Below are positions 16,397 through 63,453 of a stretch of 64,000 nt of DNA, one piece after another; the stretch's first letter is position 1, and each line of letters opens with the position of its first letter. A model generated the notes under the pieces. That model did not search any database and was not told where the DNA came from. It saw only the letters and a list, made by a program, of their open reading frames with translations. Origin of the DNA: a virus; the IMG/VR virus record IMGVR_UViG_3300032893_000005, positions 90,092 to 154,091 of that record, one strand, 5' to 3'. A program made the position numbers and the translations under genes.

Positions 16397-16660
16397 TTAG
16401 GCGGGTGTTACCTTCTGATTAAGATCTTGACCTAACTTACTGTCTTTGTTATCTTTTTCACTATCCTCAACCTCGCAGAAGTCGACGTTGAAGTTCGCGA
16501 GCTTCCAGCCGTAGGGCTTCAGGACCTTGTTGGCCTCAGCGTGGGCCTTCTTCAGGATGGCGTTCACCTGGTTACCCAGTTCTTCAGCCATCCTCATGCG
16601 CTCGCTGACTCCCATGCTTGCTAGTGGACGGGCGTTTTCTTTTACTAAGCGCTTACTCAT
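16397..16660 (-). CDS. Small helical protein
   Basis: This 87-aa protein has a long N-terminal helix (residues about 15-50, M-A-E-E-L-G-N-Q-V-N-A-I-L-K-K) followed by V-L-K-P-Y-G-W-K-L and an acidic tail. The arrangement suggests a small chaperone or connector, but no family is recognised. The C-terminal L-G-Q-D-L-N is encoded by a copy of the repeated AGATCTTAAT motif, so the last codons double as a probable promoter for the next fibre unit. Confidence 0.7.
   Translation of the reverse strand: MSKRLVKENARPLASMGVSERMRMAEELGNQVNAILKKAHAEANKVLKPYGWKLANFNVDFCEVEDSEKDNKDSKLGQDLNQKVTPA
16418..16437 (-). promoter_or_regulatory. Late-promoter-like motif, copy 1
   Basis: On the minus strand this reads GTTAGGTCAAGATCTTAATC and ends 56 nt before the start of the SKL fibre gene (16362). 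It matches the seven-copy consensus GTTAnnnnnAGATCTTAAT. It lies within the last codons of the 16397-16660 gene. It would begin the transcription unit covering the fibre cluster down to 6007. Confidence 0.6.
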
Positions 16661-16671
16661 GTGGCCCTTTC

Positions 16672-17106
16672 TTATAGTTGACCGATGATCGCGATGGCGA
16701 CCAAGAGGTCAAGCTGCGAAGGTGTGGTCTCGTTCTTAACTATGAAGCCGACTCGGACAACCCAGTCGCCTTCCACGAATCCGTCAACCCCGATGTCAGG
16801 CTTGTCGTTGGTGAGCCCACCGGAGAGCGATACGAACACCGCGTCACCGGGCGAGAACATGCCGACGTTGTAGATCGTGCCGCTCGCGATGATCGTACCC
16901 TGGCTTCCGTTACCCACAGTGGCGACCGTGAGGCCAGCCAAGGATAGGACGTCAGCTTCCAGTGTAGGATTTATAGTAGCCATGCCTGTAGCTGTAATCT
17001 TTACAGGCAAGGCAGCACCGATCGCAGACCCCGTGTTGTTGGTCGAGGTCTTGGTGATCGACTGCGCCTGCACTGGTATGCCGAAGCTCTGGGAAGAGTA
17101 GCTCAT
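16672..17106 (-). CDS. Small beta-rich virion protein
   Basis: This 144-aa protein is all-beta and uncharged, with a hydrophobic C-terminus (L-D-L-L-V-A-I-A-I-I-G-Q-L). The start is taken at the ATG at 17106, which overlaps the preceding TAA (TAATG) with GGTGGA upstream; an ATG 15 nt further upstream is possible. G-M-F-S-P-G-D-A-V-F-V-S and V-G-F-I-V-K-N resemble pieces of head/tail decoration or fibre-trimer proteins. Position between two giant fibre genes suggests a structural component. Confidence 0.7.
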   Translation of the reverse strand: MSYSSQSFGIPVQAQSITKTSTNNTGSAIGAALPVKITATGMATINPTLEADVLSLAGLTVATVGNGSQGTIIASGTIYNVGMFSPGDAVFVSLSGGLTNDKPDIGVDGFVEGDWVVRVGFIVKNETTPSQLDLLVAIAIIGQL

Positions 17107-20100
17107 TAGTTGATCCACCATTGTACCCCATCGCTCGACACGTCGATCGAGTCGCCTGGGTTCGTGAGTACCTTGGTCATCGCGAAGTCGATGTTGTCGG
17201 CTCCAGACACTGTGACGGTGTTAGCTGACATATCCTTCTTCTTGATCGTGAACCTTACGCCAGTCGCACTGCTCGCAGAAGGCAGCGAGATGATGATCGA
17301 GGCAGAAGATGCGTCAGCGAGCACGAAGTCGTCGACTCCTAGGGAGATCGTGTGATTCGCGCTGTAAGTCGTGAAGCTTCTGTTGTTCGAGATGCCTGCC
17401 AAGAACACGCCGCGAGTCTGCTTGCGGTAAGCGCCTAGGCCTACGTCGTAGATGAGCAGGTAGTTCGAGTTGTTCGCGACCGAGTCAGTCGGCAGGTGGA
17501 CGAAGTCGTCGTCGGGAGCACCGCCGCCAGTTCCAGGACCGCCAGGCATCCTGATCTTGAAGTCGAGGACGTCGCCAACGACTAAGTTCTGGTTGATCTG
17601 GATGGTAGTCGACTGAGCACCGAACACTCCAACCTCAGTCCAGCCGCCGGTCACAGAGTCTACGTTGGTGAGCGGCAGGAACTGACCGTTGAGGAACAGG
17701 TCAAGCCAACCTTTACCGACGGTGTAGTACTGCGTTGCGTTAGAGTTTCGAGAGTTGAGCGGCAAGGTGATGTTCGTGCCGGACGTTATCGGTCCGTTGA
17801 TCTGGTTGTTGCCAGAAGCACCGCTCGTGACCAACAGCAGAGACTCGTCGTACGCGGGGTTCGACAAGGTCGTGAAGATGCTGTTGATGTTACCAGCACA
17901 GATCGAGATCGCGATGGTCAGCGAGTCAGCGCTCGAGAACGTGTAAGGGCTTCCAGCCTGAGGGAAGATGGTGTAAGGCGGAGAGGTGTCGGACTCTGAC
18001 TCAGAGCCGATGAACTTCAGGATGTTGAGCAGCGTCGGATCGTCGATCTGAGCTGAGTCGCCCTGCTCGAGTACGCCGTTACCACCACGCAGTCTTAGGT
18101 AGATGCGAGGAGTCGCAGTGACAGAACCGTCGCCCGCTATGCCGCCGCCAGTCTCAGAGTAGACCTGGTAGTACGTCGTGTAGTTTGCGCTTGCGTAGCT
18201 CACGCCGCCGTTGGTAGTTGCGACCGAGTAACCGGCAGACTGAGGAGGAGTTCCGGTACTCTTCAGACGCGCAGCGTTGAAGCTGTCCGCCGTCGTACCC
18301 TTGATCATCCACACGTAGTTTCCAGCAGAGAGGCTCGGGTAGCCAGCGCCGGTGAACGTGAAGTCGATGTCTGCCAAGTTGGTGATGGCGGTCGCAGCTA
18401 CTACGTCAGAAGACGCGAGCACGGAGCCAGTGGGCACGTTGCCCGAGGCTGCGTACACGTCGATGTACACGTTGCCGGTCGGAGTTCCCATGGGGTTACC
18501 GCCGACGACCGTGATCTTACCTAAGTTGATGCCAGCGCCGAGCGAGAAGTTGTTACCCTGCCAGTCCTGAGTCGTGATCGATCCAGTGTCGAAGCCGCTA
18601 GATGGAGCAGGAGTAGCGCCGGTCAAGCCGTCTGCGACGAGAGTATAGGCCGGTGATCCGCCGGAGACGTCGGGGCCAGGGTTGTAGACCGTGAAGGTCT
18701 TAGAGCCCGTGACCGCCTGGATGTCGTACTTGCCGTCGAAGCTCGAGTCGTTGGCGCCCGCGATCGTGATCGCCTGTCCTACGACGAGGTTGTGGTTCAA
18801 AACTGTCTTAACAGTCGCGTAGTTGCTCGCCCGAGACAGACCGCCGTTCGCAGGCGTGTCGATCATGAGGGTCGTGAACGCGTTGTCGTCGCGCTTCGCT
18901 AACCAGTAAGTATCCCCTGACACTGGTACTGCCGTGGGATCAGCAGCGGTGACCGTGCCGTAAGTTCCCTGACAGCGAAGTGCCTTGCCAGTAACGGTCG
19001 TGCCGATGTAGTTGGACGCGAGGGTGATCGTGCTGCCGGACACCATGCTGACCTTGGCGTAGGCCGCGATGTTGTCAGCCGCGTACTTGACCCAGTCGCC
19101 AGCGCTGATGCCGCTTATGGTGTTCGCAGCAGTTATCGTGTTGGTGCCGTTGGTGAAGGAGAACGTGTTCGATGACTGGAAGTCTTGGTCGCGGACGAGG
19201 CTGACGTAGCAAACCTGACCGTCGTTGAGTTCGACGCTCCCCTGAGTGATAGTGTAAGTCAGCGGGCCGAAGATCGACCTGACGAGGACGTTTGAGGTCC
19301 ACTCGAGCAAGCCTGCAGTGGCTGGATCATGTACGAATGCGCCAGAGCCAGTGATGACTGAGAACTCAGCGTTGAACGCGAGGTTTGCGACGCTGGCACC
19401 AGGGATCAGCGAAGATCCGTTGACGTACCAGAGGGAGCCGCCTGACAGGTTCAGGATACGGCTCATCACCATGTCCATCCAGTCCTTGAACTTCAGGAGG
19501 TTGAAGTCACCGTTCTGGAAGGGGTCTGGCTGGCCGTTGGCCGTGACGATGAGAGGATTCTCAGCAGTTAATGACGCAGTGTAGTAAGGGTTCGGAGCAG
19601 CTCCACCTTGTCCTAGACGGAATGGCGAGTACTTGGCGTTCTCGATGCTGATCGCAGCGCCTGAGCTGTTGACGCCCACGATCGCAAGCGGCATGTTGGT
19701 GCCGAAGCCTGAGGTGTTGATGACGATCTGGTACTCGAGCACGAGCCCAAGCGGGACGTTCTTCGTGAACTCAACCTTGGCGTCGACGTCCCAGAAGCTG
19801 ACCAGGTCGTTGGTCGAGGGATCAGTCGCGCGGAGTAACTGGACAGATACGTAGTTGGTAGCCCCTGAGGTGAAGGAGCCGACGACGTTCGGGTTCGTCG
19901 CGTTCAGGATCTCGTTCGGGGTTCCAGCGGGAACTGTGAGGTAGGAGCCATCGGCCTGGCCAGGCATCCATATGACGCTGTCCGACACAGACACTTGGAT
20001 GGTCGATGCCTGAGCGTTGATGTAGTTCGCCGCGTTCGGTATGTAGAATCCCCTAAGGGTGTAGGGCGAAGTACCGATGAAGCCGGACAGTAAGGCCCTG

Positions 20101-20192
20101 AAGTCGAAGATGTTTCCATCCTCGATCATCTTGAGGTGAGGGACGTCTACGCGCTGAGCCTGAAGCCAGTTAAACCGCTGTGTATTTGCCAT
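17106..20192 (-). CDS. Very large virion structural/fibre protein
   Basis: This 1028-aa protein starts F-N-W-L-Q-A-Q-R-V-D-V-P-H-L, resembling attachment domains of large-phage structural proteins. Residues about 430-530 hold a beta module with H-N-L-V-V-G-Q-A-I-T-I and S-S-F-D-G-K-Y, closely paralleled in the baseplate-J protein (V-P-V-N-S-F-T-T-I then S-S-F-N-G-K-F). Residues about 800-885 contain the 'NGQ' module (L-F-L-N-G-Q-F-L-P). The C-terminus (about 910-1028) resembles the common fibre/peptidase-like 'S-L-P-S-A-S-S-A-T-G ... T-I-K-K' fold. It is probably a baseplate-attached fibre or its proximal stem. Confidence 0.75.
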   Translation of the reverse strand: MANTQRFNWLQAQRVDVPHLKMIEDGNIFDFRALLSGFIGTSPYTLRGFYIPNAANYINAQASTIQVSVSDSVIWMPGQADGSYLTVPAGTPNEILNATNPNVVGSFTSGATNYVSVQLLRATDPSTNDLVSFWDVDAKVEFTKNVPLGLVLEYQIVINTSGFGTNMPLAIVGVNSSGAAISIENAKYSPFRLGQGGAAPNPYYTASLTAENPLIVTANGQPDPFQNGDFNLLKFKDWMDMVMSRILNLSGGSLWYVNGSSLIPGASVANLAFNAEFSVITGSGAFVHDPATAGLLEWTSNVLVRSIFGPLTYTITQGSVELNDGQVCYVSLVRDQDFQSSNTFSFTNGTNTITAANTISGISAGDWVKYAADNIAAYAKVSMVSGSTITLASNYIGTTVTGKALRCQGTYGTVTAADPTAVPVSGDTYWLAKRDDNAFTTLMIDTPANGGLSRASNYATVKTVLNHNLVVGQAITIAGANDSSFDGKYDIQAVTGSKTFTVYNPGPDVSGGSPAYTLVADGLTGATPAPSSGFDTGSITTQDWQGNNFSLGAGINLGKITVVGGNPMGTPTGNVYIDVYAASGNVPTGSVLASSDVVAATAITNLADIDFTFTGAGYPSLSAGNYVWMIKGTTADSFNAARLKSTGTPPQSAGYSVATTNGGVSYASANYTTYYQVYSETGGGIAGDGSVTATPRIYLRLRGGNGVLEQGDSAQIDDPTLLNILKFIGSESESDTSPPYTIFPQAGSPYTFSSADSLTIAISICAGNINSIFTTLSNPAYDESLLLVTSGASGNNQINGPITSGTNITLPLNSRNSNATQYYTVGKGWLDLFLNGQFLPLTNVDSVTGGWTEVGVFGAQSTTIQINQNLVVGDVLDFKIRMPGGPGTGGGAPDDDFVHLPTDSVANNSNYLLIYDVGLGAYRKQTRGVFLAGISNNRSFTTYSANHTISLGVDDFVLADASSASIIISLPSASSATGVRFTIKKKDMSANTVTVSGADNIDFAMTKVLTNPGDSIDVSSDGVQWWIN

Positions 20193-20591
20193 TTAGATCT
20201 GCCTTCCAAGCCACTTGATGGGATCTCTGATGGACTCGTTCTGTTCTGGAGTTTGCCACGCAGAGACGCAGTAGTTGACCGGTTGAACACCGCCGACGAC
20301 GCCAGGCAAAGCTTCTACGTTGGTGCCACAAGTGACCTTGAACGGTTCCATGCCCGGAGGTAAGTCGCCGACGTAAGGTGCTGGGTAGCCGGGCCACGGT
20401 TGGACTGCAGGAGTGACGATGATGTTCGGGTGAAGGATCGTAGGAGGAATATACGGTGCCACGTAGGGAACTTGTACGGGCTGGGCCAACACTTCTGCCT
20501 TAAGCTTGAGGGCTTCGATGATCTGTTTCTGTATGTTAACCAGGTCTTTGAGAGCCTGGACCTCTTGCTCGAGGGCTTCTTCGCGGGTCAT
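20193..20591 (-). CDS. Coiled-coil/proline-rich small protein
   Basis: This 132-aa protein has an N-terminal heptad coiled coil (residues 1-36), then a Pro/Tyr/Val-rich extended linker (40-80) and a C-terminal region with two cysteines. It directly abuts the 1028-aa gene and is the first gene after motif copy 2. It could be a trimerising connector between baseplate and fibre, but this is inference from layout. Confidence 0.7.
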   Translation of the reverse strand: MTREEALEQEVQALKDLVNIQKQIIEALKLKAEVLAQPVQVPYVAPYIPPTILHPNIIVTPAVQPWPGYPAPYVGDLPPGMEPFKVTCGTNVEALPGVVGGVQPVNYCVSAWQTPEQNESIRDPIKWLGRQI

Positions 20592-20618
20592 CGTTTCACC
20601 TTAGATTGGCAGGACTGC

Positions 20619-20771
20619 CTAGGACTGGGTGTCCTCAGGATTAAGATCTTGAGCTAACCGGCTGATTTGCTTGTCTTTCTTTCGATCGTATTTGGTCTCA
20701 TCACCGTGATTTTTGTTCGGCGGTAGCTTGAGGCGCATGCTGGGCTTCTGGACCTTCTTAGGCTTTCGCAT
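20619..20771 (-). CDS. Possible 50-aa basic protein
   Basis: An open frame of 51 codons runs from the ATG at 20771 to TAG at 20619. It overlaps the 3' end of the endonuclease VII gene by 14 nt and ends before the next gene. The product is Lys/Arg-rich (M-R-K-P-K-K-V-Q-K-P) and has L-A-Q-D-L-N encoded by the promoter-like motif. No clear ribosome binding site is seen, so it may be fortuitous. Confidence 0.35.
   Translation of the reverse strand: MRKPKKVQKPSMRLKLPPNKNHGDETKYDRKKDKQISRLAQDLNPEDTQS
20639..20658 (-). promoter_or_regulatory. Late-promoter-like motif, copy 2
   Basis: On the minus strand this reads GTTAGCTCAAGATCTTAATC, ending 48 nt before the start of the 20193-20591 gene. It matches the seven-copy consensus exactly at all fixed positions and would begin the 20591 to 16397 transcription unit. 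Confidence 0.6.
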
Positions 20772-21210: not shown

Positions 21211-21222
21211 ACAATTACTTTA

Positions 21223-24702: not shown

Positions 24703-24932
24703 CAGTCGTGCTCGTAAGTTCCGGTCCCGTAGTTCATCTCGTACTCCGTAGCGTTGTACTCGACCGCTATGTGCAGGTTATCAACTTCCCAGCACTTTCT
24801 GCCAGCCTCGAGGCCGTAGCCGTTCATGCATACCTCGTCGAGCGTGCCGATCATGTTGAACTTACCGAGGTGCTTGCTGAGAAGCGGGTGTCCTTGCAGG
24901 TGAAGTGATGAGTTTACGTTGCCTGACTTCAC
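24702..24932 (-). CDS. Small baseplate-region protein
   Basis: This 76-aa protein, mostly beta-like (H-I-A-V-E-Y-N-A-T-E-Y-E-M-N), starts in an ATGA overlap with the end of the baseplate-J gene and ends adjoining the 93-aa gene. Translation is therefore coupled to baseplate J. The family is not recognised. Confidence 0.65.
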   Translation of the reverse strand: MKSGNVNSSLHLQGHPLLSKHLGKFNMIGTLDEVCMNGYGLEAGRKCWEVDNLHIAVEYNATEYEMNYGTGTYEHD

Positions 24933-27900
24933 GAAGCAAGGCTCACGATCACGTCCGTGCTGAGGCTCAGGACGATCGGCTTCTCGTTCGGCTGGCTGAT
25001 GATCTGGTCGTTGGTCGCGTTGTAGGTCGGGCTCGAGATACTGACGGCCTGGACACCAGCGATCGACTGGGCAGCAGAGACGATCTGCGAGAATACCACG
25101 GGATCACCAGCACCAAGGCTGTTGATGTAGGAGGCCACTGCGGTCTGAACTCTGTTACGCACCACGGCAAACGGAGTACCAGTCTTGTTGCGGATGACGA
25201 TGCTGACCTGGATTCTCTTCTTGAGCGCCGAGTCGATCTCGATGTAGGAGCCAGCCGCTGCGACGCCGGGGTAAGTGATCGGGTCAGAAGCCTGACCACG
25301 GATGACTTGACCCACTGCGTTGATTAGGCCGCCGTAGTGCTGGTACGAGTCCGCGCCGACCGCCACGTTGGTGTTGAAGGCAAGCTTGCTGACTGCGCTG
25401 ATGCTGGACGCGCCCGAGCTGTTGATCTTGTTGAAGAGGTCGATGCCCTCCACCACGATGTCTGCGTAGTTCACGTTGATCGGTGACTGCGCGACGTTTG
25501 CGATCTTCGCGTACTGGGTGAACGGGAACTCCTCGATCACGGTCACGTTCACGAAGTCAGCGCCCAGGGTGTTGGTAGTGACAGAGTTCTTGCTGAGCGT
25601 GGGCGTAGAGATCGCGATCTGAGTGTCAGAGCTGATGCCGGTGACCAGGTACTCACCCTTGCGAGTCTCGACGGGAACGCTCGAGTCATCGAGTAAGCTC
25701 GTTCCGAGAGAGAACGTGTCGCCAGGACGCACTGAGTCATAACTTATGACGTGGATGTCTGAGGCGCCTGTCAGGATGTAGTCGCCGACCATCGCCGACG
25801 GATTCTCGAAGTAGATGGTGCTTGAGCCGAAGGTGTTGACGACCAGGAACTCGCCAGCGTTGCCGAACGTGAAGACGCCGGAGAACACTGCGCGATCGCC
25901 CTTGTAGAGTCGCTTGAGGACTGTGCCGGACGCGGCTGCTGATACAACGTCAGGAGAACCAGACTGTAAGTACTGGAACGCCGTGGTGCTCGAGGCCATA
26001 GCACGGAACTTACCGTTGAAGCTCGAGTCGTCAGAACTCACTTCGATCGTGGTGAAGCTGTTGACGGGGACGTTGTGCGCTGCGCTAAGAGTGATGGTAG
26101 ACACACTCGAGGTGCGCTGCTTGTTAGTGACCGTCATGGTCTTCGAGAAGTTAGGAGCCGTGCCGAGGCCAGTCCAGGAAGCTGCGATGAACTTGCCCTG
26201 CTTCTCGAGCCTGATCTGAGTCGTGTTGTCAGAGTCGTGGTAGCGCTGAGTCTGGAACCATCCAGTCTGCTCGAGGTTACCGGTGTTGGAGTTCGAGATG
26301 CTGATCTGTGCAGTACCGAGGCTGGGGTTAACGCCCATGAAGCTGATCTCAGTTCCAGCACTGAAGCCTAAGTCTTTGGTAAGCTGGACGCCGTTCTGGA
26401 TCTTCACCCACTGGCCAGCCACGAAGCCGCGCATGGCAGCCTTCGGGATCGCGAACTTGGTGTAGGACGTTGACACGACGCTTCCAGAATCCTGCACAGC
26501 CCCTGAGATGGAGTTGGCAGTACCGCCGGAGACCTCGACTGCGCCAGAGGAGCCGAAGAGTTCAGAGTAGAACTGGACAGCGCCTGCGTTGTCGCAGACC
26601 CCAGCCTGAGCGAGCGAGCTTAGACCGGTGACAGCGAACACGTTTACGTACCTGGAGAGCTGGTCAGCGTCGGTCGGGATCAAGTAGAAGTCTTCGCCGA
26701 CGAGCTGAGAGCCGCTGATGGCGAGCGGAGTCTTAAGCGAGAAGTAGTTCACCGGCACCGAGACAGTGCCGATGTTGCTCACGTCTACCCAGTTCTCGCC
26801 GTCTGCCAAACCAATGAACGCCTCAGAGCCCAGGCTATCGTCGAGGGTAGAGGTGGTGATGTTGCCAGCACCAGACTCCAACTGAGAGAGTGAGATGTAA
26901 GAAGCAAGGTTCGCGGTTACGTACGTCGCCGTTGTGAGTGCCGTATCCCCTGACAAAGGGAAGAACTGGAGCGACGATGCGCTTGACAGAGTGCGTCCGG
27001 TTTCCAGCGTGCCGCCGTACTTGGTGATCTCGAAGTAGACGTTGGTGATCGCGGTTATCTTGTAGGAACCCTGATTGTTCGCGCTGAAGGTGGAGGCTGA
27101 GCTGATCGCAACGACGTCGCCGACCACTATGCTCGCAGACAAGAAGTTAGGGGCAGTGCCGATCGTGTTGTAGGTGTAACGCCATGTGTTACCGATCGGG
27201 TTGGTCACGTCGAACTGAGTGGTAGCATCCCAAGTGCCGCCGGTGCGCAGAGCCCCTGATGACAAGTAGAGCTGGACGCTGGTGTTTAGGTCGTTAGTGA
27301 TCGCGGACGACATCGGAGTGCTGGCCGCGTTCGGGTAGAAGAAGCCGACCTGCACCTGGTTACCGCTGGGACCGTAAGTGGCCGCGCGTACCAGCATCTT
27401 GTTGTTGGCGCCAGCAGGGTCAAGGACTGTTCTGGCCCTGAAGTGGACCTTGAAGTCGTTGAAGACGAAGTTGTTGCCGAAGCTTGCCGGGAAGTTCGAG
27501 GTAGGACCGAGGTCAGTGTCGTACGCGTTGAAGCTGTTTGCGCCGGTAGACGCGTAGACAGTTCCATGACGCCCCATGTTAATGTTGAACGTCTTGTTGA
27601 CCGTGTCCTTGTCGAAGATGCTGACCAGGTTGTCCTGGTAGCTGAAGTTGTAGCCCGACGCCACGTAGTAGCGATCGTTCTGGATGATGTCATCCATCTT
27701 AGGAGAGTTACGCAGTGTGACAGAAGTTCCGGTGATGAGTTCAAGCCGCTGCTTCAGTCCCCTGTTCGAGCTGATGAGCCCGTTGTAGGGATCAAGCCAC
27801 TTGAAGACCTTGTTCGGGTTAACCCCTAAGGTAGCAAGGTTCTGGTTGGTGATCGCGTTGGTGTAAGGAGTCGTTGCGTCGCCTGTCGCGATGCTGTCGT

Positions 27901-30466
27901 GGATGAACTCGATGAAGGTCTCGTCCGGGTTCGAGTCTAGGAAGGCAGTGTGAGATACGCCGCTCTGCGACAAAGTTCCGGCAACAAACCCCAGACTGGA
28001 AGCAGAGCTGTTGTAGCCTGCCATGTACAGGTAGCCGAGGTTAGAGTCGTACGTGTCGGTAGAGATGCGTACGGTGTTCCCAGCGACTGCGGCAGCGAAT
28101 CCCCCAATTAGAGTAGAGGTGATGCTGTTCGCAAGCGAGCTTATGGTCTGAAGCCCCGAAGGTAGTAAGACCTGCTGCATGTCGCCAGCAGACCGCGCGA
28201 AGAACAGGTCGCTTACGCCGCCTAGGGTCTTTGACTCGGCCACGCCGCTGGTAGACCGGCGTACGTCGAAGTAGTTCGCGGCAGTGGCATCCACGCGCCA
28301 GTAGCCTACGTTGGTAGCGGAGAAGCCAGCGTTCTCGGGCACGACGACCCAGTCACCTACGTTCACGTTGACGAAGGCGTTCGCGACGCTCGAGGTGTAG
28401 CGCCAGATGTTCGTCGTGGGGTTCGATACCGTGATGGTTGATCCGCCCGTGGAGCCATGCGTCACAGCCTGAGCAGAGCCATCGACGATGAGCCATATCT
28501 TAGGATTAGGGCTGACGGACAGGTTGATCGATCCGCCGGTGATGACTGCAGAATCGAGGAAAGCCCGAGTGCTGGTAGACCCAGCCGTGAAGACGTCACC
28601 CTTAGTCGCAGGCGTTACAAGCTCGATCTGACCGGTTGAGCGGTTGAGCGCGTAGTCGCTTGCCTTGCCGTCTTCTGACACGCCGAGGGCAAACATGAGG
28701 CCAGATGCGACTAGGGTACCGCCGGTGATCGCGATGCTCGCGACGTTGCTTGCTCCCTTGTTAGAGCTTACCTGGAGAGATCCGAGTCCGCTGTCTGCGA
28801 ACGTGGCTCCTGCGATCTTAGTGTTGAGGACGGACGCCCATGCGAGGAGCGAGTTGTTGGCGTTTACGGTAGCGTAGCCGTACGGGATGAAGTCAGAGTC
28901 GTTGACGGTTGCAGTCTGACTGATGCCGTCGACTTCGACGATGAGCGTCATACCACTCGTTATGCTTGGTGACCAGGCGCTCTGAAGGTTCGAGAATACG
29001 GTGGGGACCACGCCGTCCTTTATCAGGAGCTTCTCGTTCTTGTAGAGGCGGAGGGTGTAGGTAAGCGTGGTCGGGAAGCCCAGGAACTGGTTGGCGTCTA
29101 TTCCGGAGATCGGCGCAGTAACCTGGATGTCCTCGTTCACGAAGTCTTTGGCAAAGAGCGTTATGAACGCGTCGTTCATGAACGAGCGAGCGCTGAAGAG
29201 CAGAGTGCTGTTCGCGTTGATGGAGTTGACTACCTCGAAGGTGTCAGCCGCGTTCGGAGTTGCGAAGTCGCTGTCTGCGAACTGGTGCTGACTTAGGACA
29301 CCACCGACTAAGACGCTAAGTGTCATTCCACCGGTGATGGCGAACGGAGTCTGAAGCGTCGAGATGACGATGGCCTTGGTGAGGTCCTGGTACTGGAGCT
29401 GGAGGTACTTCTCGCCGCCGTTAGCATCGTCGATGATGGACTCAAACCCCTGACCCGAGAAGATCGGCTCGTACCCTGCACCGTTGTCGATGAAGAGAGT
29501 GCCAGGCTCGTTGCGGTTGGCGGGCTGCCTGAACTTAGCGGACGTGACCGTTTGCTGGTCATCGCTCGAGGTGATGTCGATCGCGGAGTTCTCGACGGCC
29601 AAGGTCGTAGCCTTGGTCTTCGTGGCTGCCGTCTTCTTGATGAGGTCACGGTAGTCGTCGTCGGCCATCGTGTCCCGGCCAGAGGTGAATCCGATCGGGT
29701 TAGTGGCAGTGGCGTTTGGAAACGGTGCGTTACCAAATCCCACCACGGCAGCAGCGGGTACGTTGCTCGTCGATCCAGGCGTAGTGGCCACGACGGGAAC
29801 GTCAGATAACTGCTGCTCTCCGTCAAGGAGCGTGACTGATGCCAGAGTCCTGAACGTGGTAGCGGGGCTCGTGAGAGTTGCCTGTGTCTGGACGATGGAG
29901 CCGGACTGGACAACCCTGTTGCCGCCCTGCGCCAAGATGACGGTCTCGCCGAGGTTGTGGTTCTTTGCTGTGACGGTTGACAAGGTGATCTGGAAGTAGG
30001 AGCCCACCGGCGTGATCGCAGTGTAGGCGATCGGACCTTCTAAGTTGTTGGTTCCACGACCGATGTAGATCGAGCCTTGCTGCGGGAAGGCTGAGCCGTC
30101 GGCCACGTTGACGTACTGAGAGCCAGCCGGAGGTGCTGGGGTTCCCTGGTAGACCTTGGTCGCGACCTTGACGAAGCTCGCCTGAGAGATCGTGACGGTA
30201 CCGTTGGACGGCCTTGCTTGTGGTCTGGGAACTCCCTGTCCGTTGCCGTAGTTGTCGAGGTCTGAGCCCGACAGGTTGTCGATGTCGACTGAGGCCAAGG
30301 CAGTCATGATGTCGCCCTGGATCTTGAAGTCGTTCAGGACCGCAGTCTCGGCAAAGGAGCGCCCGGCGCTTCCTACGGCGAGGTCGTTCGTTCCCGACTT
30401 GGTTACCCAAGTGCGGATGAACGTGTTAAGCATGGACGTGAATGACGTTTGTGTCGGTACTGCCAT
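24929..30466 (-). CDS. Giant baseplate-J-like protein
   Basis: At 1845 aa this is three to five times the usual length for the family. The N-terminal 290 residues follow the gpJ / T4 gp6 pattern: G-S-A-G-R-S-F-A-E-T, then L-D-N-Y-G (about 70), a strand region, and G-R-D-T-M-A-D-D-D-Y-R-D-L-I-K-K near residues 260-275. The last 140 residues carry the matching C-terminal J fold (I-Q-V-S-I-V-I-R-N, then V-A-S-Y-I-N-S-L-G-A-G, then S-I-A-G-V-Q-A-V). Between them lie about 1,350 residues of repeated beta modules. J-type proteins form the wedge ring that triggers sheath contraction. The insert may decorate the baseplate or hold fibres. Motif copy 3 lies 45 nt upstream. Confidence 0.85.
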   Translation of the reverse strand: MAVPTQTSFTSMLNTFIRTWVTKSGTNDLAVGSAGRSFAETAVLNDFKIQGDIMTALASVDIDNLSGSDLDNYGNGQGVPRPQARPSNGTVTISQASFVKVATKVYQGTPAPPAGSQYVNVADGSAFPQQGSIYIGRGTNNLEGPIAYTAITPVGSYFQITLSTVTAKNHNLGETVILAQGGNRVVQSGSIVQTQATLTSPATTFRTLASVTLLDGEQQLSDVPVVATTPGSTSNVPAAAVVGFGNAPFPNATATNPIGFTSGRDTMADDDYRDLIKKTAATKTKATTLAVENSAIDITSSDDQQTVTSAKFRQPANRNEPGTLFIDNGAGYEPIFSGQGFESIIDDANGGEKYLQLQYQDLTKAIVISTLQTPFAITGGMTLSVLVGGVLSQHQFADSDFATPNAADTFEVVNSINANSTLLFSARSFMNDAFITLFAKDFVNEDIQVTAPISGIDANQFLGFPTTLTYTLRLYKNEKLLIKDGVVPTVFSNLQSAWSPSITSGMTLIVEVDGISQTATVNDSDFIPYGYATVNANNSLLAWASVLNTKIAGATFADSGLGSLQVSSNKGASNVASIAITGGTLVASGLMFALGVSEDGKASDYALNRSTGQIELVTPATKGDVFTAGSTSTRAFLDSAVITGGSINLSVSPNPKIWLIVDGSAQAVTHGSTGGSTITVSNPTTNIWRYTSSVANAFVNVNVGDWVVVPENAGFSATNVGYWRVDATAANYFDVRRSTSGVAESKTLGGVSDLFFARSAGDMQQVLLPSGLQTISSLANSITSTLIGGFAAAVAGNTVRISTDTYDSNLGYLYMAGYNSSASSLGFVAGTLSQSGVSHTAFLDSNPDETFIEFIHDSIATGDATTPYTNAITNQNLATLGVNPNKVFKWLDPYNGLISSNRGLKQRLELITGTSVTLRNSPKMDDIIQNDRYYVASGYNFSYQDNLVSIFDKDTVNKTFNINMGRHGTVYASTGANSFNAYDTDLGPTSNFPASFGNNFVFNDFKVHFRARTVLDPAGANNKMLVRAATYGPSGNQVQVGFFYPNAASTPMSSAITNDLNTSVQLYLSSGALRTGGTWDATTQFDVTNPIGNTWRYTYNTIGTAPNFLSASIVVGDVVAISSASTFSANNQGSYKITAITNVYFEITKYGGTLETGRTLSSASSLQFFPLSGDTALTTATYVTANLASYISLSQLESGAGNITTSTLDDSLGSEAFIGLADGENWVDVSNIGTVSVPVNYFSLKTPLAISGSQLVGEDFYLIPTDADQLSRYVNVFAVTGLSSLAQAGVCDNAGAVQFYSELFGSSGAVEVSGGTANSISGAVQDSGSVVSTSYTKFAIPKAAMRGFVAGQWVKIQNGVQLTKDLGFSAGTEISFMGVNPSLGTAQISISNSNTGNLEQTGWFQTQRYHDSDNTTQIRLEKQGKFIAASWTGLGTAPNFSKTMTVTNKQRTSSVSTITLSAAHNVPVNSFTTIEVSSDDSSFNGKFRAMASSTTAFQYLQSGSPDVVSAAASGTVLKRLYKGDRAVFSGVFTFGNAGEFLVVNTFGSSTIYFENPSAMVGDYILTGASDIHVISYDSVRPGDTFSLGTSLLDDSSVPVETRKGEYLVTGISSDTQIAISTPTLSKNSVTTNTLGADFVNVTVIEEFPFTQYAKIANVAQSPINVNYADIVVEGIDLFNKINSSGASSISAVSKLAFNTNVAVGADSYQHYGGLINAVGQVIRGQASDPITYPGVAAAGSYIEIDSALKKRIQVSIVIRNKTGTPFAVVRNRVQTAVASYINSLGAGDPVVFSQIVSAAQSIAGVQAVSISSPTYNATNDQIISQPNEKPIVLSLSTDVIVSLAS

Positions 30467-30510: not shown

Positions 30511-30530
30511 GATTAAGATCTGGGTTTAAC
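30511..30530 (-). promoter_or_regulatory. Late-promoter-like motif, copy 3
   Basis: On the minus strand this reads GTTAAACCCAGATCTTAATC, ending 45 nt before the start of the baseplate-J gene (30466). It has the conserved GTTA, five variable bases and AGATCTTAAT. It starts the unit from baseplate J through the 531-aa gene. Confidence 0.6.
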
Positions 30531-30546
30531 TATATGATCTTACTAG

Positions 30547-33045: not shown

Positions 33046-33053
33046 TGTTCACC

Positions 33054-35272: not shown

Positions 35273-35274
35273 TT

Positions 35275-41518: not shown

Positions 41519-41538
41519 CATTAAGATCTGGAGTTAAG
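41519..41538 (-). promoter_or_regulatory. Late-promoter-like motif, copy 4
   Basis: On the minus strand this reads CTTAACTCCAGATCTTAATG. GTTA is CTTA here; all other fixed positions match the consensus. It ends 53 nt before the start of the 41101-41466 gene and would begin the unit running from there down to 30547, covering tape measure, hub, spike and LysM/gp25 genes. It lies in the 132-nt non-coding gap facing the plus-strand gene at 41599. Confidence 0.6.
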
Positions 41539-41598
41539 TTATTGTTATTGTTAAAGAAGATACCCATTGCGACTAGGCTAAAACTAGGGCAAAATTAA

Positions 41599-50100: not shown

Positions 50101-50120
50101 TATTAAGAACTATACGTAAC
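50101..50120 (-). promoter_or_regulatory. Late-promoter-like motif, copy 7 (diverged)
   Basis: On the minus strand this reads GTTACGTATAGTTCTTAATA: AGATCT is changed to AGTTCT, and all other fixed positions are kept. It ends 69 nt before the first gene of the second fibre unit (50032). It lies in the 185-nt divergent gap at 50033-50217, which also holds a plus-strand sigma70-like promoter. Confidence 0.5.
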
Positions 50121-50162
50121 TCTATGTTTTCATTGACTTTATTCTTCTGATTACCTCCTGAC

Positions 50163-55869: not shown

Positions 55870-56102
55870 AGAAGTCCAAGTTCTTGGCCCAGCTTACAGA
55901 CGTCGCTCGTAACACAACCAGGGAACTGGGCGTGTACAACGAGCAGCTCGTCCAAGCTCTGGTCACCAACATGTTCAACGCTATCACAGCATCAGGGATG
56001 CTTCCTCCGCGTACCGAGTACGACGTGAACGGAGTGAAGTTCTCTGACCACTTCTGGGAGTCTGAGGACACCCTTCCAACAACCCGAGCGGAGTCTCCGT
56101 GA
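55866..56102 (+). CDS. Small hypothetical protein
   Basis: This 78-aa protein starts with GTG in a GTGA overlap with the dNMP kinase gene, so the upstream in-frame extension is disregarded. It is helical with M-F-N-A-I-T-A-S-G-M-L-P-P-R near the middle. It ends in another GTGA overlap with the membrane gene. The function is unknown. Confidence 0.7.
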   Translation: MKKSKFLAQLTDVARNTTRELGVYNEQLVQALVTNMFNAITASGMLPPRTEYDVNGVKFSDHFWESEDTLPTTRAESP

Positions 56103-56305
56103 CCGTCACGATCCCAAACGAAGTCTTGATCCCGATCATAGCCTTCCTTGCAGGTGGGTTCTTGGTCTACGACATGAACAAGGATCTTGACGTTGACGGT
56201 CCAGGGATCACTTGGTGGTTGTTCATTGCAGTACTCTGGATACTAGGCATAATCTGTTACCCGTTCTACTGGGTACACGGCAAACTTACAGGAGCAAAGA
56301 GATGA
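56099..56305 (+). CDS. Two-segment membrane protein
   Basis: This 68-aa protein has two hydrophobic stretches (I-P-I-I-A-F-L-A-G-G-F-L-V at about 10-23, and W-W-L-F-I-A-V-L-W-I-L-G-I-I-C-Y at about 38-55) separated by an acidic loop, with a basic C-terminus. Small two-helix membrane proteins in phages can be holins, superinfection-exclusion or membrane-remodelling factors. No lysis gene is near, so none is chosen. GTGA and ATGA overlaps link it to both neighbours. Confidence 0.7.
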   Translation: MTVTIPNEVLIPIIAFLAGGFLVYDMNKDLDVDGPGITWWLFIAVLWILGIICYPFYWVHGKLTGAKR

Positions 56306-56916
56306 CACACGAGTTCGCACTACACTACAACATCCACAACGTAGTGATGCGCTACCAGAACACCAAGGAGACGCGGCGTAGTCGGCCAATGCGCAGTAGC
56401 ACAGCGCAGAAGTTAGCCCGCCTTCGAGCCAAGACCTTCTTCATTCGTATAGACGAGATCGACGTCATGTTCGCACTCGACCAGCTCGCTAAGAACCATG
56501 AAGGCGTATCGGTACTGATGGAGATCGGGGTATCCAGCGTGAACCCTGGAAACTTGCCGAAGTATCACATGATCAAGCAGGACATCAAGAAGATGAAGGA
56601 TAGCTTGAGGGAGATCAAGTCCGAGACGCTCAGTAAGATGACTGAAGAAAGCATCAAGAGAGCTGAAGAGGCTGCCGCCAAGGTGAAGCCGGACAACTAC
56701 TCGCGCAAGCTCGGACGAGAGCGTGCGAAGGAAGCCGCGAAGAACGCCGTCCTGAAGCTGACGTCTGCGTCCGTACAGGATGGCAGAGCAGTGTTGCGAC
56801 TTGTGAGCGATGAGATCGCGTTTGACTACGTGAAGAACTTCAAGACAGGATCGGTGCGACTGCACCTTGTGGAAGTAGACGGCATCGAAGTTGCGGCCAT
56901 GTTGCCGTACAACTGA
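56302..56916 (+). CDS. Hypothetical protein, end of plus-strand operon
   Basis: This 204-aa basic protein starts in an ATGA overlap (an upstream in-frame start is not used). A helical N-terminal half is followed by a long Lys/Glu helix (about 85-135) and a strand-rich C-terminus ending V-E-V-D-G-I-E-V-A-A-M-L-P-Y-N. No motif is recognised. A likely terminator follows 14 nt after the stop. Confidence 0.7.
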   Translation: MTHEFALHYNIHNVVMRYQNTKETRRSRPMRSSTAQKLARLRAKTFFIRIDEIDVMFALDQLAKNHEGVSVLMEIGVSSVNPGNLPKYHMIKQDIKKMKDSLREIKSETLSKMTEESIKRAEEAAAKVKPDNYSRKLGRERAKEAAKNAVLKLTSASVQDGRAVLRLVSDEIAFDYVKNFKTGSVRLHLVEVDGIEVAAMLPYN

Positions 56917-57855: not shown

Positions 57856-60663
57856 TTAAGCAGCAGCGCTGGCCTTGATGCCTTCGATCTCGAGCGTGAT
57901 CGGGGCAAAGCGAATCGAAGTGGCTTCGATGACAACTGCGTCAACGAGCAAGACGTCCTCGTCGAGTTCAGCGTTGATGCTGATCCAACCGCCGGGAGCA
58001 CCTTGCTGAGGCGACCTGACGATGAGCTTCTTGTTCAAGAACTCTTCCATCTTCGCCTTGACGAAGGAGATGACGGTCGAGGGTTGAACGTCGGCCACAG
58101 ACTCACCGACGAACGCGTCGCGGATTGCCTGAGCCAAGCTGAGGGCGATGATGTCGGCCACGTAGACAGCTTGCAAGCTGTTGTAGACGAAGTTGTTGTC
58201 GACGCCGTAGGTCGTTTGGTCAGTACGGAACCGGAACGAACCGTCTTCCATCTGACTGACGGGGATCATGCCGGACAAGATGGCCTGTTCGACCAGCGAG
58301 TCAGCCTGATCGTCGAAGCCGACGGGGTTCACGACGCCAGAGATCTGAAGAGCCTTGTTGTAGATGGCCTTGTAGAAGCCAGCGGCTTGCATACCGGCGA
58401 CCTTCGCAGCGCCCATCCAAGGTTGGAAGGTAACGATGGCGCCTTGTGAGTTCAAGTCCTTGATGCTCTGGAAGCACATCGTGCAACGGAAGCTTGCCAG
58501 GATCTCAGCAGCGGACTGCTGGTTCTGGAAGGTATCGAGCTTCGAGACCTGAGCAACGCGGTGACGCTTCACCTTAGGAGTCGACATCGCGATGACGTGG
58601 GCGCGGGCCGCAGCGTTCGCAGCGTCGACTGTGTAAGTAGAAGACTGGTCAGTAAGTCCAGCCGCCGAGTCAAGAGTTGCGTCTTGGCTGACGAGGGGAA
58701 CTACGAAGTTGCAGCGAACGGTCGACAGTGCCGTGATGGACTGAGCCATCTGCAGCGCGGTCGTTCCACCCTTGGCACCGCCAGACAAGAAGTAGGGTCC
58801 TTCGTCGTCGGGGAGACCGGCAGTAGCGATCGGCATGTAAGTGACCTGAATAGAGGAAGCGGCGATGTTGCCGGGTCCAGCGGTCAAGTCCCAGATGTCG
58901 CGCTTGATGAGTCCAGGAGCAGTGCTCGCGACGTCCGAGCAGATGCCGACGTTAGAGACTTGGTCCAAGATCATAGGCGAACGCTGAGCATCCGTGCCAG
59001 ATCCAGGCTGAGCGTAGTAGCCAGCGTTGGAGCTGATCAAGGCGCAGAGGTCAGAGATCGTGTTTACGCTGTTCAAGATGATCGACAGGTTCGTGCCCGA
59101 TCCACCAGTGACGCTGGTGGTGAGCATGAGGTTCGCGCCGCTCATGGCTATGCTCATGGTAGCAGTCGTTCCCAAGTAGCCGACTTCGAGGGCGATGTGA
59201 CCGCCGACGATCGGGCTCTCGTTCACGTTGGTGATCGAGTTTGAGAAGCTGAACTGCTTGGCGAACTCGGAAGCCGAGTCGAGCTGTTGGCCGATCCACG
59301 AAGCTGCGTTGGCAGTTCCGAGGTTCAAGAACAAGGTGTTGATGTTGACGGCACCGGCGTTGTCCAAGATCATCATGGACTTACCAACACCGCGAATCTG
59401 ACGATCCAAGACTTGGACGTCCGAGGTAGCGGCGATCGCGGTCGAGCTGACAGCGACGGGCGAGCCGTTAGACAGGCGAGAAGCCGTGACGTAGGCAGAG
59501 CCAGCGACGTTGTTCACTGCCGAGACTTGGTACCAGCCGACGTTGGCAGAACCAGCACCGGCGTAGGCCGAGCTGGAAGGAATGTGCAACCAGTCACCGA
59601 TCTGCGGATTTGAGGCAAACTTGCCAGTAGCCAGAGCGAAGGTGATGGCCGGACCAGCGACGGAGACGGAAGCGTTGACGCCGACCAGTCCAGTCAGTAC
59701 TTGTCTATCTGTTCCTGACATGTTGTTGATCGATATCGAGCTGTAGTCGACCAGGTCGTTGGCGGGAGTGGCGGAGAGGGCTACGGAGGAGACCGCGACC
59801 GGAGCACCGGCAGTGATCTTCACTGCAGATATGCTGGCCGAAGCCGACGTGTTGCTGACCGCAGTGACGATGTACCAACCGACGTTGGCGTTACCGACAC
59901 CAGCTATGACGGAGCCAGACGGGATGTTCATGGAGTCGCCGATTGCAGGCGAAGCACCGAACACAGCCGGAGCAGTCAAGCTGATGGTTACGTTCTGGCC
60001 AGAAACCGCGACTGCGATCTGGTTTGACGCACTGAGTCCAGACATGATGTTCTGGTTGACGCCGCCGACTGCGTTGAGGTTGTTCAGCGCGGTGATGGCC
60101 TGTGCAAGAGACGAGGGAAGGGTGTTCGCGCTGATCGCGAGTGCCTGCTTGGCTCCGCCGTTTACGCGGATGTCGGCAGAAGCGCCGGAAGCAGACGGAG
60201 CGTACGAGAACTTGCTGGTCGATGGAGCGACTTCGTCGACTGCGGTCGAGATGCTCTCCTTGATGCTGTTACCGGGAGCACCGGCAGCATCGGCGAGGAT
60301 CTTGCCGTGACCGTCGTCAGTCTGCTTCATGGCGTTTAAGCCAAGGTTTGACTTGACAAGGATGAATCTCTGAGGCGAACCTTTAATACGAGACGAGGCA
60401 GAAGCGGCAACGGCGCCGCGATAAGCATCGACCAGGCGGCCCGAACCGTACTTGGCCACAACGCGGTTAATGTCGCCGGGACCGAAAGAATTGCTTGAAA
60501 GACGATCTTCTTGGGACCACTGAGGACCTTGGTCAGCTTCGCCAACGAGAGCTATGACGCCAGTCGTGGCAAGACCTTGCGGATTCGAGATCACCGACGT
60601 GGCGATCGACGAGTCCGGGATAATCAGTGTTGATCCATCGGCTGTAACATAAACTCGAGCCAT
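57856..60663 (-). CDS. Contractile tail sheath protein with large insert
   Basis: This 935-aa protein is longer than most sheaths (T4 gp18 is 659 aa). The N-terminus (G-V-I-A-L-V-G-E-A-D-Q-G-P, then R-F-I-L-V-K-S-N) and C-terminus match the sheath pattern. The C-terminal part includes L-V-E-Q-A-I-L-S-G-M-I, G-V-D-N-N-F-V-Y-N-S-L-Q, and L-D-E-D-V-L-L-V-D-A, with a terminal T-L-E-I-E-G strand. Residues about 205-290 and 305-410 are two related copies of an inserted beta domain (I-G-D-x-x-x-I-P-S, V-G-W-Y-x-V-x-A-V and P-V-A-V-S-S). The insert probably decorates the outer surface. Motif copy 5 lies 28 nt upstream. Confidence 0.9.
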   Translation of the reverse strand: MARVYVTADGSTLIIPDSSIATSVISNPQGLATTGVIALVGEADQGPQWSQEDRLSSNSFGPGDINRVVAKYGSGRLVDAYRGAVAASASSRIKGSPQRFILVKSNLGLNAMKQTDDGHGKILADAAGAPGNSIKESISTAVDEVAPSTSKFSYAPSASGASADIRVNGGAKQALAISANTLPSSLAQAITALNNLNAVGGVNQNIMSGLSASNQIAVAVSGQNVTISLTAPAVFGASPAIGDSMNIPSGSVIAGVGNANVGWYIVTAVSNTSASASISAVKITAGAPVAVSSVALSATPANDLVDYSSISINNMSGTDRQVLTGLVGVNASVSVAGPAITFALATGKFASNPQIGDWLHIPSSSAYAGAGSANVGWYQVSAVNNVAGSAYVTASRLSNGSPVAVSSTAIAATSDVQVLDRQIRGVGKSMMILDNAGAVNINTLFLNLGTANAASWIGQQLDSASEFAKQFSFSNSITNVNESPIVGGHIALEVGYLGTTATMSIAMSGANLMLTTSVTGGSGTNLSIILNSVNTISDLCALISSNAGYYAQPGSGTDAQRSPMILDQVSNVGICSDVASTAPGLIKRDIWDLTAGPGNIAASSIQVTYMPIATAGLPDDEGPYFLSGGAKGGTTALQMAQSITALSTVRCNFVVPLVSQDATLDSAAGLTDQSSTYTVDAANAAARAHVIAMSTPKVKRHRVAQVSKLDTFQNQQSAAEILASFRCTMCFQSIKDLNSQGAIVTFQPWMGAAKVAGMQAAGFYKAIYNKALQISGVVNPVGFDDQADSLVEQAILSGMIPVSQMEDGSFRFRTDQTTYGVDNNFVYNSLQAVYVADIIALSLAQAIRDAFVGESVADVQPSTVISFVKAKMEEFLNKKLIVRSPQQGAPGGWISINAELDEDVLLVDAVVIEATSIRFAPITLEIEGIKASAAA

Positions 60664-60690
60664 CTCTGTCTCCTAACTCAACTTGTCAAG

Positions 60691-60709
60691 GATTAAGATC
60701 TACGGTTAA
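60691..60709 (-). promoter_or_regulatory. Late-promoter-like motif, copy 5
   Basis: On the minus strand this reads TTAACCGTAGATCTTAATC, ending 28 nt before the sheath ATG. GTTA is TTTA here; the remaining fixed positions match. It would begin the sheath/tube/56990 unit. Confidence 0.6.
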
Positions 60710-60724
60710 ATCCTTGAATTTACT

Positions 60725-60958: not shown

Positions 60959-60967
60959 TTACTCACC

Positions 60968-62263
60968 TTACGGGAGGTTTGGTTTCTTCATGCCCTTCAG
61001 AGTGCTCAAGATCTTTGTATGCATCGCGTGAGCCTTCTGGGTGTACTGGTTCTTCAACTCAGGAACTTGAGCTGCGCGGGTCGCCGCGCCAGCCGGGGAA
61101 ACACCCTTAGGATTAACTCTCAAGACCTGATGAGCTTCACCCATCGGGATCTCAGGATGAACGCCCTTCTGATCTTTCACGACCACGGCGCCAAAGCCAG
61201 CATCTGGACGGGGAGTCGGCGTAGACGGTGCACCAGTTCCTCCGAGAGCCTTATCCATCTCTTCACCCTTGCCCCACTTAGCAGGCTTCACGCCTTCTGC
61301 TACGCAGACGGCATGTGGGTTCTTGACTTCAGGACTGTTTTCTTTCACATGTTCAACGCATCGATCGTGCTTTGACTCGCTGGCCTTAGCAACGTGCTCA
61401 GGCAACTTCTTGCCCTTAGTTTCTTCGTCCCAGTGATGAACTGCAGCTTTGCCACCCAAGGCTTTGGTTCCAGCTTCAGTATGAGCCCACTTCCTCTGAG
61501 CATCTGACTTGTAAGGCTTCATCAAGGGCTCAGCCTTGTTCACGACCTGAGGAATGAGAGACTTGTTGGCCGGGTTGACCACTTCTCGACCCTTGTCTTG
61601 GTCGATCTTGTCTTCTTTGTAAGCGTTCGCGGCCTTCTGATGCTCAGAGACCTGATCTTCATGTTCTTGGCGCTGCGCAGCTTCACTGTCTTTCCGGCGC
61701 TCGTTCGCGACGACGCCGTCGGTGATGCGCTGACGCTCCATGTCGTTCTTGCACATCTTCATGCAGCCAACAGCCTTCTGCATCCACTTCGCGAGGTGAG
61801 CTGGATCGCGTCCTTCAGACTTCGGAAGGTTCGGCTTTGGCTCTTGCATGGTGCGGTGTGCTTCGTTGCGCTGTTCTTGAACGGCAAGTCCCATGTGCTG
61901 CTTGGCATCTTTGGGAAAACCATGCTGCTTCATGTGCATTGCTGTGCGAACGATTGTTCCAATCGTCGAGTGACCAGGCTTACCTTGGGGCTGCTGCACT
62001 GCCTTGTCCATGTTCATGTTCATAGCTCCACCGCCGAACGAGCCCATGGCATCTTTCTTCATGCCTGGCGCCTTCATGCCGGGAGGAGTCGGGGGTTTGG
62101 GAGCACCGGCTACTGTCATCGGCTTCTGCACTGGAGCAGGGGCCGGAGCTGGCGCGGGAGCAGCCTTGTTGATGAGGACGCCGGGAAGCTTCGTGGCTGG
62201 ATCTGCCTTCACCAGGTCGATGATCTCGTTCACCTTCTTGATCAAGCTGTCAAAGTCACTCAT
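60968..62263 (-). CDS. Basic, His/Met-rich phage protein with KSDAQR-type motif
   Basis: This 431-aa protein has a short helical N-terminus, a Pro/Ala linker (residues about 33-65) and a long Lys/Gln/Met-rich region. Two pieces are recognisable in other phage structural-region proteins. K-S-D-A-Q-R-K-W-A-H-T-E with the following K-A-L-G-G-K-A-A-V-H-H-W-D (about 250-285) is one. The other is K-H-D-R-C-V-E-H-V, then V-C-V-A-E-G-V-K-P (about 305-335). Such motifs appear in virion or packaging-associated proteins, but no established function is known to me. It is likely DNA-binding by charge. Confidence 0.65.
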   Translation of the reverse strand: MSDFDSLIKKVNEIIDLVKADPATKLPGVLINKAAPAPAPAPAPVQKPMTVAGAPKPPTPPGMKAPGMKKDAMGSFGGGAMNMNMDKAVQQPQGKPGHSTIGTIVRTAMHMKQHGFPKDAKQHMGLAVQEQRNEAHRTMQEPKPNLPKSEGRDPAHLAKWMQKAVGCMKMCKNDMERQRITDGVVANERRKDSEAAQRQEHEDQVSEHQKAANAYKEDKIDQDKGREVVNPANKSLIPQVVNKAEPLMKPYKSDAQRKWAHTEAGTKALGGKAAVHHWDEETKGKKLPEHVAKASESKHDRCVEHVKENSPEVKNPHAVCVAEGVKPAKWGKGEEMDKALGGTGAPSTPTPRPDAGFGAVVVKDQKGVHPEIPMGEAHQVLRVNPKGVSPAGAATRAAQVPELKNQYTQKAHAMHTKILSTLKGMKKPNLP

Positions 62264-62776: not shown

Positions 62777-63000
62777 TGCCTCATCCTCTCGTACGCTCTG
62801 ACGAGTTCTCTTCCGAACGGCGTCACTAGCGTATCTTCGTCAACTGCTTCGAGCTGCACCAGCTTGTAGAAGGACATGCCGAAGCAGAACCAATTCTTCT
62901 CGGGTAGGTAAGACGCTTGAGAGAGCAGGTCCATGTCACGAACAGTGAGGTCCTCGATCTTCCACTTGCGCTTCTTCTTCAAGATTACTTGGTTCACCAT
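62773..63000 (-). CDS. Small hypothetical protein
   Basis: This 75-aa protein starts K-K-K-R-K-W-K-I-E-D after M-V-N-Q-V-I-L, with a strongly basic patch, and ends R-A-Y-E-R-M-R-Q. The compact alpha/beta pattern and the G-R-E-L-V-R helix could suit a head-tail connector or a small regulator. No family is assigned. It overlaps both neighbours by 4-7 nt. Confidence 0.6.
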   Translation of the reverse strand: MVNQVILKKKRKWKIEDLTVRDMDLLSQASYLPEKNWFCFGMSFYKLVQLEAVDEDTLVTPFGRELVRAYERMRQ

Positions 63001-63425
63001 GACCCCGTCTTGTGATGATTGTTGACCACCTTCACAGCGTCCTCGACGTTTGAGAACATCTGCGGGTGACGTGCGATCGCGGAGCCATTAGCGCCTACTT
63101 GAGCGATCGATACGTGCGGTACCTTGCCCATCTTGTGGGCGTCTACCGTAACTTCATAATGCGGTGCAGCAGAACCCTTCATCCCCATCATGTGCACGAT
63201 CTTTCCGGCCTGAGTCGCCTTTCGACCTAGGTACTGGAGTGGACCTGCACTGGCACTGACCGGCGCCTTAGGCGCCTGGTTACCAGCCCTCATGAGCGGG
63301 ACGATGTTGTTGTCCTTCTTCAAGTCGGCTTCCCGGTTGAAGTGACCACGAACTTCTTGGATGGCCTGAGTCAGGTTCCTGAGTGAGGTAAGCTTCTTGT
63401 AGAGTTCTGGAGGGACGTCAGCCAT
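62994..63425 (-). CDS. Hypothetical virion-region protein
   Basis: This 143-aa protein has an N-terminal helix (L-T-S-L-R-N-L-T-Q-A-I-Q-E-V-R), a Gly/Ala/Pro linker and a strand-helix C-terminus containing H-P-Q-M-F-S-N-V-E-D-A-V-K-V-V. The ATG at 63425 lies only 10 nt from motif copy 6 and has no ribosome site, so the message may be near-leaderless or start elsewhere. The function is unknown. Confidence 0.6.
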   Translation of the reverse strand: MADVPPELYKKLTSLRNLTQAIQEVRGHFNREADLKKDNNIVPLMRAGNQAPKAPVSASAGPLQYLGRKATQAGKIVHMMGMKGSAAPHYEVTVDAHKMGKVPHVSIAQVGANGSAIARHPQMFSNVEDAVKVVNNHHKTGSW

Positions 63426-63434
63426 ACTGCGTTA

Positions 63435-63453
63435 GATTAAGATCTTGACCTAA
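63435..63453 (-). promoter_or_regulatory. Late-promoter-like motif, copy 6
   Basis: On the minus strand this reads TTAGGTCAAGATCTTAATC, identical at all 19 positions to copy 1, which is 47 kb away. It ends 10 nt before the ATG of the 62994-63425 gene, much closer than the others, and lies in the 38-nt gap after the gene that runs off the window. Confidence 0.6.

Follow-up and report, generated by a model that had tools for sequence, protein, structure and literature searches.

Promoters of other phages and a predicted late promoter

The late promoters of phage T4 carry the box TATAAATA at positions -13 to -6, and the phage protein gp55 resembles sigma factors only in domain 2 (PMC2988020, PMC1524935). 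Promoter sequence drifts together with the sigma between phages, with CTAAATA as the late promoter in phage Aeh1 (PMC1524935). The SPO1 late consensus, as quoted in PMC3601020, is CGTTAGA(N17-19)GATATT, and the promoters of the phiEco32 and 7-11 phage sigmas have the consensus TAATGTATA (PMC4331800). For Myxococcus phage Mx1 (169.6 kb) the genome announcement mentions no promoter (PMC10720576), although our literature search was incomplete and an earlier description is possible. Here we describe a predicted late promoter in a stretch of 64,000 nucleotides (the window), which spans positions 90092-154091 and forms the right-hand part of the 154,091-base viral record IMGVR_UViG_3300032893_000005, together with a sigma-70 gene encoded elsewhere in the same record.

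The element is very probably a three-part late promoter, read by host RNA polymerase (RNAP) with the phage sigma in a clade of ~150-kb contractile-tailed phages that are distant kin of Mx1. A late promoter had been proposed in an earlier sequence-only reading of the window, and it is by far the best reading of the sites, their strand bias, spacing and conservation, and the sigma gene. A group of uncultured phages that is widespread, and whose nearest named relative found is Mx1, would thereby gain a predicted late promoter with its likely sigma.

Compared to the T4 late system (gp55/gp33/gp45), the arrangement is alike in that a phage sigma-70-family protein lacking a recognisable region 4.2 would send the host RNAP to a compact -10-type box. 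It differs in the box itself (A.ATCTTAAT instead of TATAAATA), in two further upstream boxes and in a sigma homology that extends through regions 3 and 4.1; moreover, no gp33-like protein or gene was recognised in the window phage. By analogy, the motif would work like the T4 late promoters, but it is not a member of them. The sequence-only reading had likened it to neither sigma70 nor T4 promoters; indeed it matches neither consensus, yet it appears to work like a sigma-type -10 promoter. The SPO1 late system (gp33/gp34) belongs to a phage with a related major capsid protein (~26-27%), and the quoted CGTTAGA and GATATT resemble GTTAg and GATCTT of the window phage. However, GTTA lies 6 nt from the -10 box in all window-phage copies, compared to 19-21 nt in the quoted SPO1 consensus, and given this spacing the likeness may be chance. 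In phiEco32 and 7-11, a phage sigma, the host core polymerase and a compact element before structural genes on one strand are likewise combined, whereas the consensus is TAATGTATA and neither a -35-like nor a TTA box is described in the consulted part of that source (PMC4331800). Mx1 shares an orthologous sigma, the late gene order and a YAATCTT core before orthologous late genes, but is devoid of the TTA box, the -35-like box and the TAAT extension.

Distribution of the sites

The motif GTTA-N5-AGATCTTAAT occurs seven times in the window, each time on the minus strand (Table 1), at the places listed by the sequence-only reading to within 1 nt. The claimed constant spacing is exact in 7/7 copies, and the copy at 50102 carries AGTTCT, as had been noticed; the relaxed first letter is found as well, although three copies rather than two lack the G (C at 41520, T at 60692 and 63436). 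The gap between motif and start codon measures 10-69 nt, against a claimed 10-70 nt, with gene starts taken from mechanical open reading frame (ORF) calls. The argument from conserved wobble positions depends mainly on the 16418 site, which overlaps the end of a possible ORF of 87 residues, whereas most copies are intergenic. Two near matches lie on the plus strand of the window: one at 63431, which is no separate place but the 63436 site seen from the other strand because AGATCT is palindromic, and one at 36154 with three mismatches.

Across the whole record, AGATCTTAAT occurs exactly nine times on the minus strand, without mismatch, and never on the plus strand, consistent with the earlier impression that no plus-strand gene is preceded by the motif. 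The reversed motif pattern was found nowhere in the 154-kb record, and the bipartite pattern did not appear in 20 dinucleotide-preserving shuffles. Allowing one-mismatch copies, the record contains 11 full GTTA-type sites, four of them outside the window, in addition to a weaker 12th site near record position 17013; all 11 lie on the late strand, in place of many copies in both orientations.

A three-box architecture

The motif described by the sequence-only reading is real but incomplete, comprising about two thirds of the element and missing an upstream -35-like box. Alignment of 56 sites from clade 1, anchored on the core, revealed the full element as A(-36).T(-34).A(-32)..TCA(-27), TTA(-21..-19) and A.A[T/A]CTTAAT(-13..-4). 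Within the -35-like box, A(-36) is present in 53/56 sites, T(-34) in 43/56, A(-32) in 49/56, T(-29) in 39/56, C(-28) in 50/56 and A(-27) in 45/56; in the window phage alone, A(-36) is found in 11/11 and C(-28) in 9/11 sites, and a box scan placed the upstream box at one offset, -32, in 9/11. Conservation spans -36 to -4 and ends before +1. The -10 element corresponds to the AGATCTTAAT block and carries an extension of its own. It reads A.ATCTTAAT at -13 to -4, two of the phages examined having A.AACTTAAT instead, and relatives share only its ATCTT or AACTT core.

The numbering of the window sites is anchored on the spacing between core and ATG in sister phages. In four of these, the distance peaks at exactly 6 nt (15 cases on the late strand, none on the control strand), a spacing that would fix +1 and make the core a -10 element. 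With AATCTT at -12 to -7, the A of the ATG would be +1, so that late mRNAs of the sister phages at such sites would be leaderless. For clade 1, short leaders are predicted instead of leaderless starts; in the window phage the shortest measure 5-8 nt.

Conservation in relatives

The major capsid protein of the window phage is 51% identical to that of Mx1, and the gene order around terminase, portal and capsid is conserved between the two. Nucleotide and protein searches with TerL retrieved few relatives, whereas the alignment of capsid proteins gave 80 viral loci; scanning genome contigs with this alignment found no relatives. In the capsid tree the window phage falls into an eight-row clade with 100/100 support. 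The motif labels of the tree, which used the loci around the capsid gene, cover 5/8 rows, and a pattern search of whole records added the others, so that the motif occurs in 8/8 rows. Its TTA-N5 spacing is the same throughout, whereas the -10 letters vary from phage to phage, a combination that promoters drifting with their sigma would be expected to show.

Unbiased motif discovery was carried out by an expectation-maximisation search of the sequences upstream of all gene starts, each strand separately. The motif was the top result in the window phage (.ttA...caAGATCtTaAtc) and in three relatives, namely TTA....AAaAtCTTAAT in G003, cTTagg.cAAAAACTTAATa in G006 and tta......aAactTAATat in G001, on one strand only in each. 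In G004 it was not the top result, although the pattern search found seven copies, all on one strand. The early-strand motifs that the same discovery gave for the window phage look like codon background and were discarded.

The sister phages Mx1, G010, G019 and G024 have only YAATCTT before late genes. This bare heptamer is ~1.7-3 times as frequent genome-wide as in shuffles, with hardly any excess in G024, so the evidence from sister phages lies in position, not in count. Putative promoters stand before corresponding genes in the window phage and Mx1: those of the tail sheath, the baseplate J gene, the 41101 gene, the 17106 block, the prohead gene and the 9141 block, whose proteins are 27-51% identical where measured. 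The gene 17106-20192 is homologous to Mx1 139197-141188, with TAATCTT just upstream at Mx1 139168; 24929-30466 is the ortholog of Mx1 130008 (baseplate J), with CAATCTT at 129965; 41101-41466 has its homolog in Mx1 74303-74728, ahead of which TAATCTT lies at 74270; and the Mx1 tail sheath start is preceded by CAATCTA.

The phage sigma factor

The search for a sigma-like gene elsewhere in the genome, as the sequence-only reading had suggested, identified a sigma-70 gene at record 28745-29746 on the minus strand, which encodes the one protein of the record with sigma-70 region 2 (PF04542 at the family cut-off). It is the ortholog of the annotated putative sigma factor of Mx1 (29%), and orthologs are present in 37/40 records searched, the window phage and Mx1 included. 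A profile of 26 orthologs matches RpoD with an E-value of 2e-13 across regions 2, 3 and 4.1, in a continuous alignment to RpoD 405-604 of 652 that ends where region 4.2 begins; PF04539 is matched in 4/26. The orthologs read share the ending LKG[IV] followed by few residues, and stop within ~20 residues of region 4.1. Region 4.2 is the helix-turn-helix that reads the -35 element, and its family (PF04545, Sigma70_r4) has no match in the whole record, with a positive control. The RNAP beta and beta-prime subunits also have no match in the whole record, again with positive controls; the window phage is without multisubunit RNA polymerase genes. A structure predicted by AlphaFold (predicted local distance difference test score, 80.5) and structural similarity search using Foldseek agree with a sigma fold, whereas the global template-modelling scores of ~0.3-0.46 to solved sigmas make the domain placement unreliable. 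Region 3.0 differs by clade ([AT].IG.H..KKLY compared to HFYPSDKRKLY). No residue of the sigma was found to account for the switch between ATCTT and AACTT; the position that varies within region 2.3-2.4 (W, R, R, K, F) does not follow it.

We propose that host core RNAP would carry the phage sigma-70-family protein to the promoter, melt the DNA at ATCTT and start 7 nt downstream, giving mRNA leaders of ~5-65 nt. A sigma that stops after region 4.1 has no normal region 4.2 to read the upstream boxes, which therefore need another reader; candidates are its unique conserved N-terminal domain, the altered region 3.0 or a phage co-activator. Tentatively, with the odds slightly against it, a novel N-terminal domain of the sigma, or a co-activator, might read the -35-like and -20 boxes in place of region 4.2, while one sister lineage would use the -10 box only and make leaderless mRNAs. 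On this reading, recognition of upstream promoter DNA would have been gained or lost by a single orthologous sigma, and the two clades would preserve that change. Sister clades combine this sigma with different promoter architectures, a contrast that allows one to ask which part of a sigma devoid of region 4.2 reads the DNA upstream of the -10 box, and that bears on how phage promoters and sigmas drift together.

Alternative readings

Several points weigh against a late promoter read by the phage sigma. The position of +1, the late expression and the reading of the promoter by the sigma are all deduced from sequence; the pairing of sigma and promoter rests on co-occurrence, and the difference between the clades amounts to one event in the phylogeny. 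Relative G006, the 116-kb record of which may be a fragment, yielded no sigma. A scan of ten proteins (clade-1-restricted ones and neighbouring ORFs) did not identify a reader of the -35-like box, and only a subtilase, a phosphoesterase, a uracil-DNA glycosylase and ClpP could be named among them. Finally, the Pfam RNA_pol search for a T7-type polymerase (PF00940) had no match, but its control was silent too. The motif might instead be a promoter for a phage-encoded single-subunit RNAP. Promoters of T7-type polymerases are compact and strand-specific, as is this conserved element of ~20-30 bp. This reading is nevertheless very unlikely, since the sigma-70 gene is conserved through the clade, the core acts like a -10 box that places the predicted start seven nt further on, and the conservation from -36 to -4 has -35 and -10 geometry and stops before +1.

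Another possible reader is the host's own sigma, perhaps helped by an activator of the phage that binds the TTA or -35-like box. The T4 MotA middle promoters, served by host sigma and a phage activator, are a precedent; the upstream box sits where activators bind, and a phage sigma lacking region 4.2 calls for another reader of the upstream DNA. We regard this as unlikely, because the site alignment contains no TTGACA/TATAAT pair (TTGACA-16..18-TATAAT), matches resembling promoters are no more frequent than chance at 50-64 kb of the window, and clades with diverged sigmas also have different -10 cores. That the motif lies just upstream of start codons would also suit a role at the RNA level, where it could form a leader of late mRNAs, direct their processing or enhance their translation. 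However, the sites share no fold (shuffle z-scores -3.0 to +1.7), and in relatives exactly 6 nt often separate the core from the ATG, which is where a -10 box would lie if the start were leaderless; we consider such a role extremely improbable. The palindromic AGATCT recalls a site in DNA that is used in packaging, recombination or modification or that is bound by a repressor. Relatives, however, lose the palindrome (AAATCT, AAAACT) while keeping the asymmetric frame and strand bias, and nearly all copies precede late-strand genes, so this reading is hardly credible.

Sites, downstream genes and further observations

Table 1. Predicted late promoters and first genes of the blocks they would drive (window positions unless marked; all window features on the minus strand)
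Feature	Position	Motif copy	Predicted +1	Gene or block it would drive	Evidence
Late promoter (-36 to -4)	16418..16450	16418-16436	16414	virion structural gene 13972-16362	exact motif and upstream box
First gene of late block	13972..16362				796-amino-acid protein matching minor tail / virion structural PHROGs
Late promoter	20640..20672	20640-20658	20636	20193-20591 and 17106-20192	exact motif
Late promoter	30512..30544	30512-30530	30508	baseplate gene 24929-30466	exact motif
First gene of late block, baseplate wedge / J-like	24929..30466				PHROG_6 1.2e-19; Mx1 homology
Late promoter	41520..41552	41520-41538	41516	block 30547-41466	motif
Late promoter with AGTTCTTAAT	50102..50134	50102-50120	50098	49400-50032 and tail-fibre genes	one mismatch; tail fibre PHROGs downstream
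Late promoter	60692..60724	60692-60710	60688	tail sheath gene 57856-60663	motif
First gene of late block, tail sheath	57856..60663				homology to Mx1 tail sheath, E 1e-180
Late promoter	63436..63468	63436-63454	63432 (leader 7 nt)	62994-63425 onward	motif and site alignment
Extra site	record 7539, late strand			conserved large-protein gene	
Extra site	record 9965, late strand			late block	
Extra site	record 18040, late strand			gene block leading to major capsid gene	
Extra site	record 24556, late strand			block with portal gene	

Within the late block at 30547-41466, an endonuclease-like gene (HNH / Holliday junction PHROGs) lies at 34469-35272 on the minus strand and is perhaps a mobile insertion. 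Three early-strand genes on the plus strand of the record, at 53961-54548, 55636-56502 and 61619-62056, encode ClpP, the subtilase and the uracil-DNA glycosylase, respectively.

Immediately after the sigma gene, a small ORF at record 28471-28761 (minus; L010:8471-8761) resembles GroES by eye and recurs behind sigma in the relatives read, and the phage also has a GroEL gene at record 32427-34232 (plus). This small gene was considered as the missing part of a split sigma; read in all frames in 16 phages, it looks like a co-chaperonin rather than region 4.2, and Pfam gives no match. The sigma ORF of some relatives (L104, L128 and records G012, G015, G016 and G026) contains one in-frame TAG or TGA, possibly reflecting recoding, an intron or a frameshift, while some may be the natural ORF end.

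In Mx1 (OR576727), the annotated start of the putative prohead protease (13002-13025) is probably too early, as CAATCTT at 13010 is followed 6 nt later by an ATG, which suggests a leaderless start at 13023. G024 (IMGVR_UViG_3300022213_000237, loci L156-L164) carries another motif, aGATC.a...G.tA...a, on its minus strand (for example at 75698 and 88725), ~6 nt before the ATG of many early-strand genes; this makes it a candidate for an early or middle promoter, possibly one whose mRNAs are leaderless as well.

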